DNA of 64,000 nucleotides from an uncultured Croceitalea sp. (lineage in GTDB: Bacteria > Bacteroidota > Bacteroidia > Flavobacteriales > Flavobacteriaceae), in the NCBI GenBank assembly GCA_947499565.1, contig CANMOV010000001.1, positions 434,001 through 498,000 on the forward strand. The letters run 5' to 3'. The position numbers and the translations under genes are program-made. Each line of letters opens with the position of its first letter. Position 1 is the first letter of the stretch. The notes beneath the pieces were generated by a model. The model was not told the origin of the DNA. It saw only the letters and a list, made by a program, of their open reading frames with translations, and did not search any database. This document shows positions 10,127 through 13,502 of the stretch, piece by piece.

Positions 10127-10882
10127 TTGGAACACCCCATTAAAATTCTTATAGTTGAGGACAATGTTATCATTGCCGATGATATGCAGTCCATGTTAGA
10201 GGAAATAGGTTATGAAGTTGTAGATAACGTTATCGTTTATGAACAAGCGGTAGAAGTTTTAAAAAACAACCATGTAGACTTAGTTCTAATAGATATTATA
10301 CTTGCATCTGATAAAACAGGAATTGATTTAGGCAAACATATTAGAGATGTGTATAACATCCCTTTTGTATTTGTTACTTCCAATTCCGACAAAGCAACTG
10401 TAGAAAATGCAAAATTAGTTAAGCCAGATGGTTATTTAGTAAAGCCATTTGAACAACAAGATCTTTATACATCTATAGAGATTGCATTATCTAATTTTAA
10501 TTATTCTAATAAAACGAGTAATACAAATGTAGAGAATGATGAAGGCGATAGTTTTATGTCTAATTCAGTTTTAAAGGACTCTATTTTTGTTAAGAAACAG
10601 CACCTTTATTATAGAATTCAATTTGGAGATATCCAATTTATAAAGGCTGATAATGTTTATCTAGAAGTAAACACCGTTGATAAGAAGTTCTTAGTGAGGT
10701 CTCCTTTAAAAGATTACCTTGAAAAATTACCTAAGGGCAAATTTTATCGTGCTCACAAGTCTTATATTGTTAATGTAGATCATATTGATGCTATAAATTC
10801 AAAGGACATTATGATTAACAACACATTAATACCAATTTCTAAAGATTTTAAAGAGTTTATTATTTCTTCAATGAACTCATAG
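10127..10882 (+). CDS. LytTR-family response regulator
   Basis: 251 residues. An N-terminal receiver domain (1-120) has acidic residues in IVEDN, the phospho-acceptor Asp in LVLIDIIL (about residue 56), Thr/Ser in VTSNS and Lys in LVKPF. A C-terminal LytTR DNA-binding domain (about 155-250) contains FIKADNVYLEV, LVRSPLKDYLEKLP and FYRAHKSYIVNVDHID. The start is TTG at 10127 (TTG GAA CAC), 34 bp after menA; no ATG lies before the receiver domain. The next gene, 660 bp downstream, is a histidine kinase and its likely partner. The gap holds 21-bp-phased repeats that fit LytTR sites. Confidence 0.93.
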   Translation: MEHPIKILIVEDNVIIADDMQSMLEEIGYEVVDNVIVYEQAVEVLKNNHVDLVLIDIILASDKTGIDLGKHIRDVYNIPFVFVTSNSDKATVENAKLVKPDGYLVKPFEQQDLYTSIEIALSNFNYSNKTSNTNVENDEGDSFMSNSVLKDSIFVKKQHLYYRIQFGDIQFIKADNVYLEVNTVDKKFLVRSPLKDYLEKLPKGKFYRAHKSYIVNVDHIDAINSKDIMINNTLIPISKDFKEFIISSMNS

Positions 10883-10906
10883 TAGTTATTAAAATTAATA
10901 AAATGA

Positions 10907-10929
10907 ATGCCCTGTATAGGGCATTTTTT
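10907..10929 (+). terminator. Intrinsic terminator after the LytTR regulator
   Basis: Perfect 7-bp stem ATGCCCT/AGGGCAT with GTAT loop, followed by six T. Confidence 0.85.
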
Positions 10930-11083
10930 GGTTTAAGAAAGTCGTAAATCACATTTTTAAAGCTTTAAACCACACTTAAATGCCAGTTCACAACATTAAT
11001 TTCTAGTGCCCCCAAGGTGATAGTACATTTACTATATAATAAAAAAGAAAGTAAATTTTTTCATTTTCATATAGTGTTCTCGT

Positions 11084-11118
11084 AAAAAAGCCTTGTCAAA
11101 ACAGATAAGGCTTTTTTT
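11084..11118. terminator. Bidirectional intrinsic terminator
   Basis: Stem AAAAAGCCTT/AAGGCTTTTT with a 12-nt loop and T runs on both strands. It insulates the phased repeats from the regulator side. Confidence 0.75.
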
Positions 11119-11183
11119 ATGCCTAAAATCTGAGGATTATTTACGATTATCCATGAAATACATAAAACATCGATATAATGCAC

Positions 11184-11236
11184 TTTCACATATGCCCAAA
11201 GTAGTTTCACAACATAATTTGGCACTTTCACAACAT
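11184..11236. repeat. Three direct repeats TTTCACAnnAT/G at exact 21-bp spacing (candidate LytTR binding sites)
   Basis: Copies start at 11184 (TTTCACATATG), 11205 (TTTCACAACAT) and 11226 (TTTCACAACAT), each 21 bp from the next. LytTR regulators such as AgrA bind pairs of about 9-bp direct repeats with a 12-bp spacer, i.e. 21-bp spacing. On the other strand the core is ATGTTGTGA, which fits the general LytTR motif in most positions. A lone related copy is at 10986-10996. The third copy touches a -33 element. Confidence 0.65.
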
Positions 11237-11237
11237 T

Positions 11238-11271
11238 TTGCAAGTAAGGCATTCGTTTCGTCCTAATTTTG
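11238..11271 (+). promoter_or_regulatory. Promoter: -33 TTG (11238-11240) and -7 TAATTTTG (11264-11271)
   Basis: The 23-bp spacer is within the Flavobacterium range of 17-23. The third phased repeat lies immediately upstream, the position expected for an activator site. The predicted start of transcription is near 11276. Confidence 0.55.
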
Positions 11272-11275
11272 GTGG

Positions 11276-11349
11276 AAATTTATGCGTCGCCAAATCTTAC
11301 ATTATCATAATATATATAAAGGACTATACGTTTAGTATGGTCTTTTTTT
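11276..11349 (+). ncRNA. Candidate short transcript: small RNA or attenuated leader with 17-codon ORF
   Basis: Runs about 75 nt from the promoter at 11238-11271 to the terminator at 11322-11349. It contains ATG at 11282 encoding MRRQILHYHNIYKGLYV, with the TAG (11333-11335) at the terminator's loop-stem junction. It could be a free small RNA, or a leader whose translation controls read-through to the histidine kinase 195 bp downstream. A chance ORF of this size is quite possible; the promoter-terminator pair is the stronger evidence. Confidence 0.4.
11322..11349 (+). terminator. Intrinsic terminator of the short transcript
   Basis: Stem GACTATAC/GTATGGTC with one G-T pair, extendable by A-T pairs, a 5-nt loop and seven T. 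Confidence 0.75.
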
Positions 11350-11543
11350 AGATATGGTGAACTAATTTGTTGTTAAGTACAAGCAAACTAATTATTCTTT
11401 TGTGTTTATACCACTTAAGTCCTTGTGTTTACAACAAAACATTGTGTCTAATAGGACATAATAATAATTTTATTTGAAGATGATGTCTGTTAGATACAAG
11501 TTATTTAAACAAGAAACGTTTTTATAAAAACAGCAAATAAGTA

Positions 11544-13502
11544 ATGCCAAAACGAGCTAAAATAATTATTCTTCTTACCCTTTTTTCTTTTGGGTGTTTG
11601 GCTGCTCAGTCAATTCAAACACAAGAAGTTGATTTATTAGAGGTTTTTAGAGATACAGAAGGTGCTGTTGAAAAGTTTGATTACTTTTTTGAGACCCCAA
11701 ATAGATATACCCAAGATTCTGCCTATGACTGGTTGGATGACGTTAAAGTATATTTAAATAGTGCCGAAAAAATTAATGATTCTAATGCAATCAGACTATA
11801 CAAGTTAATTAAGGCTCAACTTTATTATGATTTAGGTGACTATGATAAGAGTATTGCTTTTGCTAAAGAGTTACCAAAGAATAAAGACACATTAGGACGA
11901 AAACAATTAGAAATACTGTTAACGATTCTTGATGAAAATTATAGTCAACTTAAATTGTTCGATGAACAAATAAAGATTCGAGAAGAGAAAATAGAGTTAG
12001 GTTATACAAGTGGAGTAGCATTTTATGATATCTATGAAAAAATGGGTCTCTATAGAAGAGCTTTAGATAAATATGTGCGAACTGTTGGTCCTACAATCGC
12101 TGATAATGATGACCTTGGTAAAGCAAAGCATCATAATAAAATTGGTAATTATTTGCGATTAGATAAATCTGAACGTACCGCAATTAGTGAATTGAATAAA
12201 GCCAGTGGCTATTTAAAAGTAGTAATCAATGATATTACCAAACAAAAGACAGAGAATGACCTTTTTGAAATTGAATTTCTTAAAGCCGAAATAGATGGTA
12301 ACATTGGAAAATCATATGTAGGTTTAAAACAATACAAAGAGGCATTACCACATTTACAAGCTAGTTTAAAAATTTTTGAGGAATTTGATAATGGTAAGTA
12401 TTATAATCAAATTACAGATAATAGATTAAACTTTGCAAATGCTCATCTACAACTTGGTAATTATAAAACCGCAAAGAGAAACCTAGATATCATTGGTAAA
12501 CCTAGTGATATTCAGCAGCAATTAAAACAGAACCGATTGTTAGCCAGTTATTATGATAAAACAGACAACTTTAGGACTGCTTCATCTTTTTATAAGAGAA
12601 ATGAGCGCATATTAGATTCATTAGAAGCTAATGAACAATCCATTTTAAAGCAGCAACTAGTTGCAATTGTTGGTGATTCTGATCTAGAAAATTCGAGAAG
12701 ACTGGTTAATCAGCAAAAAGCAGCGAATGAAAAATTTAGAAGTGAGATGCAACAAGCTAGTGAGCGTACTAACCTTGTCATCATTTCTTTAATATTTACG
12801 CTTTTAGGTTTTGCCGGATTGGTCTATGCGTACTTAAAGAGTATTAAGAACCAACGTTTAATTGCGCAACAGAAACATATAATAGAAGATTCTTTAAAAG
12901 AGAAGGATTCGTTGTTAAAAGAAATCCATCATAGGGTTAAAAATAACCTTCAAATGGTATCTAGTCTATTAAGTCTTCAAACAAAAAATACGCGCAGTAA
13001 AGCTGCAATAGCTGCACTTGAGGAAGGTAAGAGTAGGGTAAAGGCTATGGCTTTAATCCACCAAAAATTGTATCAGAATGAAGACCTTTCTGTTATTGAG
13101 ATGCAGGGATATATAGAGAGTTTAATAAATAGTGTACAATCTGTATACAAAAAAGGTGGACATAATATAAGTATTACTATAGATGCTGAAGGCACTGAGC
13201 TGGATATTGATAGAGCCATTCCTTTCGGGTTAATTTTAAATGAGCTGGTGTCCAACTCTTTTAAATATGCATTCCCGGAGAGTGATGATAATGGTAAAAT
13301 TTATATTCACCTAAGAAAGAATGGAGACCAAGGATATTTTGAATATACTGACAATGGCGTTGGATTGCCTGAAGATACAGATGAGCGTGCGAACTCTTCT
13401 ATGGGAATCCGTTTAATGAATCGCTTGGTAAATCAATTACAATCTAAGTTAAATGTTGACAAATCTGGTGAAGGTGTTCGTTTTTGGTTCAACTTTAATT
13501 AG
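11544..13502 (+). CDS. TPR-containing sensor histidine kinase (HisKA_2/HWE-like)
   Basis: 652 residues. The N-terminus looks exported (LTLFSFGCLAAQ, signal peptide about 1-21), followed by a large TPR-like helical sensor region (about 60-370), a coiled coil (about 375-405), one membrane helix (about 409-432, LVIISLIFTLLGFAGLVYAYL) and a cytoplasmic kinase. The DHp motif LLKEIHHRVKNNLQMVSSLL puts the phospho-His at 462/463. The ATPase domain has N-box LILNELVSNSFKYAF, G1 DNGVGLP and a SSMGIRLMNRLVNQL lid. It probably phosphorylates the LytTR regulator encoded upstream. It ends 1 nt from the convergent SDR gene. Confidence 0.93.
   Translation: MPKRAKIIILLTLFSFGCLAAQSIQTQEVDLLEVFRDTEGAVEKFDYFFETPNRYTQDSAYDWLDDVKVYLNSAEKINDSNAIRLYKLIKAQLYYDLGDYDKSIAFAKELPKNKDTLGRKQLEILLTILDENYSQLKLFDEQIKIREEKIELGYTSGVAFYDIYEKMGLYRRALDKYVRTVGPTIADNDDLGKAKHHNKIGNYLRLDKSERTAISELNKASGYLKVVINDITKQKTENDLFEIEFLKAEIDGNIGKSYVGLKQYKEALPHLQASLKIFEEFDNGKYYNQITDNRLNFANAHLQLGNYKTAKRNLDIIGKPSDIQQQLKQNRLLASYYDKTDNFRTASSFYKRNERILDSLEANEQSILKQQLVAIVGDSDLENSRRLVNQQKAANEKFRSEMQQASERTNLVIISLIFTLLGFAGLVYAYLKSIKNQRLIAQQKHIIEDSLKEKDSLLKEIHHRVKNNLQMVSSLLSLQTKNTRSKAAIAALEEGKSRVKAMALIHQKLYQNEDLSVIEMQGYIESLINSVQSVYKKGGHNISITIDAEGTELDIDRAIPFGLILNELVSNSFKYAFPESDDNGKIYIHLRKNGDQGYFEYTDNGVGLPEDTDERANSSMGIRLMNRLVNQLQSKLNVDKSGEGVRFWFNFN

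Follow-up and report, generated by a model that had tools for sequence, protein, structure and literature searches.

Phased direct repeats between a LytTR regulator gene and a histidine kinase gene in an uncultured Croceitalea sp.: a predicted operator-promoter of a small RNA

We propose that positions 11184-11271 of the window (the whole stretch of DNA analysed, 64,000 nucleotides) form the operator-promoter of a predicted small RNA, sRNA2, and that the LytTR response regulator encoded upstream would activate this RNA, a second predicted small RNA (sRNA1), the neighboring kinase gene and further genes, with the small RNAs acting in trans; from sequence comparison we put the probability of this reading at roughly 0.83. 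The comparisons bring out a conserved promoter layout, its reuse across the genome, its co-occurrence with the regulator, terminators and an invariant RNA core. An earlier, sequence-only reading had missed that the promoter next to the repeats (P2) precedes a predicted small RNA, that there are three such promoters here and that the site recurs genome-wide.

Predicted promoters between the regulator and kinase genes

The intergenic region, 10883-11543, lies between the genes for a LytTR response regulator and a TPR histidine kinase (Table 1). These identities had been assigned in the sequence-only reading, and the Pfam domain matches agree with them; in the regulator, both Response_reg (70.5 bits; cut-off 30.2) and LytTR (63.5 bits; cut-off 22.6) score above the Pfam cut-off. 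The regulator gene is preceded in this genome by a UbiA-family gene, which we take to be menA-like, this gene and the TPR kinase being the neighbors seen at the locus. The 14 regulator orthologs in our alignment are 71-98% identical.

Table 1. Features of the intergenic region and its flanking genes (window coordinates).
Feature	Position	Strand	Details
LytTR response regulator, presumed activator	10127..10882	+	251 aa; TTG start; Pfam Response_reg 1.6e-19, LytTR 2.2e-17
P1	10969..11031	+	box1 ACCACA 10969-10974; box2 TTCACAACA 10987-10995; -7 element TACATTTA 11024-11031; by weight matrix
Predicted sRNA1	11037..11118	+	start estimated from -7 element; core TTCATTTTCATATAGTGTTCTCGT 11060-11083; terminator hairpin ~11084-11118
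Conserved co-element upstream of P2	11150..11181	+	TCCATGAAATACATAAAACATCGATATAATGC; AAAACATCGATAAAA pattern
Third, degenerate repeat	11184..11194	+	TTTCACATATG; TTnnCATA in 51/86 P2 regions
P2	11205..11271	+	boxes TTTCACAACA at 11205, 11226; TTG 11238-11240; -7 element TAATTTTG 11264-11271
Predicted sRNA2	11277..11347	+	start estimated; motif CCAAATCTTA 11290-11299; terminator hairpin ~11318-11347
P3, for the kinase	11410..11472	+	box1 ACCACT 11410-11415; box2 TTTACAACA 11428-11436; -7 element TAATTTTA 11465-11472
TPR histidine kinase, presumed partner	11544..13502	+	HisKA_2, HATPase_c

Three repeats phased at 21 bp had been described upstream of the kinase gene. The phase of the copies at 11184, 11205 and 11226 is indeed exact, and those at 11205 and 11226 are perfect (TTTCACAACAT), but the copy at 11184 is degenerate: it has the common TTTCACA, then diverges, and fails the strict pattern TTTCACANNAK. 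It is kept at the same phase in relatives, mostly in the looser form given in Table 1; measured against TTCACAACA, it mismatches at 2-5 of 9 positions in 70 of the 86 P2 regions and at more in 16. The description of the last copy as abutting a TTG, with a 23-bp spacer to TAATTTTG, is accurate. We take TAnnTTTG to be the -7 element of Bacteroidota promoters, in which transcription begins some 12-14 nt beyond the first T of that element.

P2 is one of three tandem promoters in the window that share a single layout (box, 21 bp, box, 28 bp, TAnnTTTG). To score them we used a promoter profile, R1, which derives from an alignment of 87 sites (68 from 30 of the 90 orthologous regions described below, 19 from unlinked copies); five were left out, partly as divergent (both L015 sites, the third of L033, the first of L068, and L135), and the remaining 82 make up the profile, which is thus trained on the genomes it was applied to, only sites outside the training set being independent. 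P2 is the best R1 site in the genome (39.1 bits), P1 scores 32.8 bits, and P3 is a weaker copy with the same spacing (22.3 bits, E 4.4e-4). A general promoter scanner run on 10800-11600 returned no promoter of the kind sought. Of 86 P2 regions, 75 have a pattern resembling AAAACATCGATAAAA (up to 4 mismatches), 65 of them at -66, against 6 of 81 for P1; this co-element, at a fixed distance upstream of P2, may be the site of another regulator.

Conservation of the box layout

Orthologous regions were collected from 95 loci (15, plus the best 80 of 277 from a scan of named genomes), of which five were duplicates, leaving 90 distinct regions with our own included. In L009, where the script detected no ORF after the regulator, we took 1000 bases; L102 was limited to 1200. 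Among the best 80 of the 277 scan loci are ones titled Croceitalea, Flagellimonas/Allomuricauda/Muricauda, Croceivirga, Maribacter, Eudoraea and Poritiphilus, besides others, and the box layout is kept in loci under each of these named titles.

Across the 90 regions, pairs of ACAACA cores (up to 1 mismatch each) at an offset of 21 bp number 228, the shuffles giving 6.4. Exact ACAACA stands 34 bp before TAnnTTTG/A/C or TAnnTTCG 119 times, against 0.1; these counts are not independent, because the regions are related by descent. Offsets of 24 (133), 18 (77) and 45 (70) are raised too and probably represent register shifts of 3 inside the boxes. A weight matrix reads box1 as about T[TA]CAC..., that is tCAC[AC]ACA-like, box2 as TTCACAACA and the -7 element as TA[AC]TTTG; scoring the same 90 regions on which it was trained, it gives 187 matches above 14 bits, with two in 68 regions, three in 15, one in 6 and none in L009. 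In 89 of the 90 regions the regulator is followed downstream by a kinase-like gene of the same strand (best tblastn segment 36-100% identical), and exactly these 89 have at least one promoter of the box layout; L009 has neither. Loss of the repeats or of their spacing in relatives that keep both genes, the outcome that would have told against the sequence-only reading, was looked for and not seen (89 of 89 kinase regions keep the layout).

The notion that the phased repeats are chance or a mobile repeat with no regulatory role draws on the frequency of the single motif, which is no rarer than chance allows: the window has 5 strict matches against 2.27 expected, and 5 are reached in 9 of 100 shuffles. 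This explanation is scarcely credible, however, as box spacing and the distance from the boxes to the -7 element are conserved in the 90 regions even though the intervening sequence drifts. The pairing, unlike the single motif, does stand out: in a genome scan for 21-bp pairs, which had been put forward as a check, the exact pair occurs once in the 3.88-Mb genome, and three other places match with 3 mismatches, against one for the reversed-pattern control. The boxes, of 9-10 nt at a 21-bp pitch, leave 11-12 nt between them and so agree with the definition of LytTR sites in passages of PMC4847170, namely a pair of direct or inverse repeats, 9-11 nt each, with a gap of 11-13 nt.

Two predicted small RNAs

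Downstream of both P1 and P2 lies a hairpin whose 3' arm is rich in U. In sRNA1, which follows P1, the first 20 nt of the core TTCATTTTCATATAGTGTTCTCGT are identical in 81 of the 90 regions and all 24 nt in 77 (the core differs at its end in L012, L034, L103 and L107), while the flanks and the spacer drift. The fold has a z-score of -5.04, and in an alignment of 29 chosen copies pairing of the terminator stem is kept through double changes in 7 of 12 pairs. A terminator scanner missed both sRNA terminators, calling none in 11000-11400, presumably because their U-runs lie inside the stem; its calls in 10800-11600, one per strand, both fall at 10905-10926, the hairpin after the regulator gene.

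Could the core encode a small peptide? An in-frame start codon is present in 23, 6 and 10 of 81 sequences in the three frames, but it is absent from the other 58, 75 and 71, and conservation extends to every core nucleotide rather than following codon positions; we rejected a coding core on these grounds and regard it as very unlikely.

Two further exact cores occur in this genome, in tandem 311 kb away between the genes for a 444-aa and a 128-aa protein, each with boxes, a -7 element and a hairpin. Allowing up to 3 mismatches over its 24 nt, the core turned up in 14 of 98 genomes, which have 1-5 copies apiece and 45 in total; for the 35 distinct copies that we read in these 14 genomes (own included), the best-scoring promoter lies 40-62 nt upstream in 34 and 134 nt upstream in one, the lowest score being 15.2 bits. 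The Flagellimonas-type loci L087, L100 and L102 contain a second sRNA1 copy. A search for a long complement of the core (20 nt, up to 3 mismatches) found no site in this genome beside the sRNA genes; over 12 genomes the 20-nt complement gave 8 sites in 5 genomes, besides sRNA genes and one core-like variant in G018, against 3 for a control pattern read backwards.

P2 in this genome precedes sRNA2, with its own terminator, and not the kinase gene directly. A plain kinase promoter reading of P2 was therefore rejected, because sRNA2 and its hairpin lie between and the kinase has P3. Counting from where the -7 element starts, the motif CCAAATCTTA or a close variant, by a pattern chosen by eye, lies at 23-28 nt in 22 of 87 P2 transcripts. 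Among 17 of these 22 (L006, L103, L105, L106 and L107 were left out of the alignment), double changes occur in 5 of 12 terminator pairs; the sRNA2 fold has a z-score of -2.73, and 1 of 200 shuffles folded equally well.

The arrangement varies, since in most Flagellimonas-type loci P2 seems to run straight into the kinase gene with no terminator detected; a weak hairpin is called after P2 in some, such as L050, L091 and L097. Together with the position of the transcripts, between the regulator and kinase genes on the same strand, this would suit an explanation in which the terminators serve as attenuators within a long kinase-mRNA leader and the intergenic RNAs are cis-acting rather than independent sRNAs. 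We consider that explanation quite unlikely, given that the two unlinked sRNA1 copies here each come with a promoter and a hairpin, the gene after them encoding the 128-aa protein rather than a kinase, and that sRNA1, sRNA2 and the kinase gene each have a promoter match of their own. A CGTTCTTTATATA-like conserved leader was also observed after P2 and before the kinase gene in L036, L041, L061 and other Flagellimonas-type loci, in most cases with no terminator detected.

At gathering score, no Rfam family matched in the window, in 14 orthologous loci or in 13 further loci, and membership of the RNAs in any Rfam family was rejected accordingly. Positions 11041-11116 resemble PsrR1 (RF02701) below threshold (25.7 bits against a gathering score of 42), and this candidate too was set aside. 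Separately, we observed longer candidate RNAs that follow the same kind of promoter and contain hairpins and recurring CCCAAATC and ACCTAC motifs (stretches L210, L212, L215, L217, L219, L220, L223, L224, L186 and L148), partly in tandem in G008, G018, G025 and G033 and singly in G000 and G002; none has an Rfam match, and the shared CCCAAATC motif is the one feature that hints at a possible kinship with sRNA2.

Co-occurrence with the regulator

A regulator at least 86% identical to ours is encoded in 14 of the 98 genomes (own included), and these are exactly the 14 that bear the core. G037 has a regulator of 71% identity and 16 more genomes have weaker matches, giving 31 of 98 at E 1e-30. Searched with R1 at E 1e-4 in 82 genomes (59 + 23), each of the 14 regulator genomes has 7-12 sites; among the 68 others, G001 has five, G037 and G071 one each, and 65 none. 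Part of this co-occurrence is built in because R1 was trained on sites of the same genomes, and the 14 genomes are relatives, not independent cases. The conserved layout and the repetition of R1 sites only in regulator genomes and G001 speak for the central proposal of the sequence-only reading, that the segment is the probable operator-promoter target of the local two-component system.

In the G001 assembly neither a close regulator nor the core was found. The contig breaks off within the UbiA-family gene, of which residues 1-170 of 302 are present and which in our genome stands before the regulator gene; the regulator may therefore be lost in the gap; an assembly gap is the likely explanation of its absence, yet core copies at other loci are missing too. 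G037 is without the core.

A different transcription factor that merely co-occurs with the regulator, for example a LytTR paralog, might instead read the boxes, and a second protein related to the regulator is encoded in this genome (38% identity, E 1.2e-46). G001, which keeps the boxes while its assembly lacks the regulator, and the single sites in G037 and G071 point in the same direction. Three of the sites, however, lie between the regulator and its presumed kinase, and genomes in which the regulator has no more than distant relatives, such as G009, G026, G032 and G034, gave no R1 site at E 1e-4; we thus judge recognition by another factor unlikely. As a separate observation, the G071 site is a strong one (C1:1175879-1175942, L230), in a genome with no regulator match at E 1e-30.

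Proposed mechanism and known systems

If the LytTR regulator is the factor that reads the boxes, the TPR kinase (11544) would presumably phosphorylate it, and the regulator (10127-10882) would bind pairs of TTCACAACA-type boxes that lie on the same side of the helix (21 bp), the inner copy beside the -33 region, and recruit RNA polymerase to promoters whose -7 element is good and whose -33 element is poor. Its targets here would include sRNA1 (three copies at two loci), sRNA2 and the kinase gene, plus further genes, nucleotide-sugar and signaling genes among them, with P3 providing positive feedback on the kinase; the sRNAs would act in trans via short conserved single-stranded cores. Binding, activation rather than repression, expression and trans action are in each case what we infer from the sequences. 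No match to the Hfq family PF17209 was found at E 0.001 in this genome (97.22% complete), and 5 of 14 control genomes have one; the sRNAs would therefore act alone or with another protein.

The closest system in logic is, by analogy, AgrA-RNAIII (agr). In Staphylococcus aureus, passages of PMC4227749 describe AgrA as a LytTR regulator that binds direct repeats upstream of the promoters of its own system and of a regulatory RNA, these promoters having suboptimal spacers. As far as those passages go, a LytTR regulator and repeats before own-system and RNA promoters are common to both, binding being predicted here, whereas AgrA sites are centered near -60 at divergent promoters and here the inner box lies beside the -33 region and the promoters are in tandem. 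Unlike RNAIII, the RNAs predicted here are short and multicopy. Rfam presumably includes RNAIII, and an RNAIII homolog was rejected, no family reaching its gathering score in the window or in the 14 orthologous and 13 further loci. Several redundant sRNAs are placed under one two-component regulator in Qrr (LuxO), the csRNAs (CiaR) and RsmY/Z (GacA), with regulator families and RNAs other than those here.

YpdA/YpdB of Escherichia coli also has a LytTR regulator with a direct repeat, GGCATTTCAT (PMC4847170); this box sequence differs from ours, and the passages concerned mention no small-RNA targets. Within the phylum, FopS of Bacteroides thetaiotaomicron, a multicopy family of 14 paralogous sRNAs described with RbpB in PMC11697453, is a precedent for multicopy sRNAs, the likeness being one of description. 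Passages on Flavobacterium psychrophilum report newly described RNAs (Rfp, e.g. Rfp18; PMC9723704), and passages on F. columnare report candidate sRNAs with no Rfam match (PMC5395568); by description, these resemble ours as flavobacterial sRNAs, and the main text of PMC9723704 has no word starting LytT. In the titles and abstract openings surveyed, a scope that most subscription papers and all preprints fall outside, no LytTR-sRNA link in Bacteroidota appeared.

The system described here would offer an operator code and a candidate regulon for a Bacteroidota LytTR regulator, tied to sRNAs absent from Rfam; the sRNAs belong to a genome without detectable Hfq, and their strongly conserved core makes Hfq-free sRNA action testable in cultured relatives. 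A broader reading, which we offer tentatively and at somewhat less than even odds, is that a clade of Flavobacteriaceae has an Hfq-free switch like AgrA-RNAIII or Qrr, with one LytTR regulator controlling surface-polysaccharide and sensor genes as well as two multicopy classes of unlisted RNA. The first class has a near-invariant core of 20-27 nt that may be constrained by a dedicated protein or by many mRNAs at once; the second, in which CCCAAATC and ACCTAC recur, may titrate a protein in the manner of CsrB.

Candidate regulon

In this genome R1 finds 11 sites at E <=1e-4, comprising the three sRNA1 promoters, P2 and seven more; up to E 10 there are 57 matches, many of them surely chance. Predicted targets were drawn from the stretches that we read, among them 49 around R1 sites (L186-L234), of which seven without a weight-matrix match above 12 bits were dropped (L187, L192, L199, L203, L207, L222 and L231). 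Names were given by eye from translated N-termini in the other genomes, and with Pfam and NCBIfam for this genome only. The predicted targets that recur there are a dTDP-glucose 4,6-dehydratase (G000, G003, G004, G006, G007); a nucleotide-sugar dehydrogenase (G000, G006, G007); a GNAT acetyltransferase with a short ORF before it (G000, G001, G005, G018, G033); a PAS protein (G000, G001, G002, G005, possibly G007 and G025); an IgGFc-binding-domain protein (G000, at E 3.3e-4, G004, G018); and a leucine-rich-repeat protein (G000, G003). The short ORF between the promoter and the GNAT acetyltransferase gene has a conserved EEEI.VYRNDFY-like stretch in L152, L232 and L226 (also in L216 and L225), and in L152 a hairpin then follows it.
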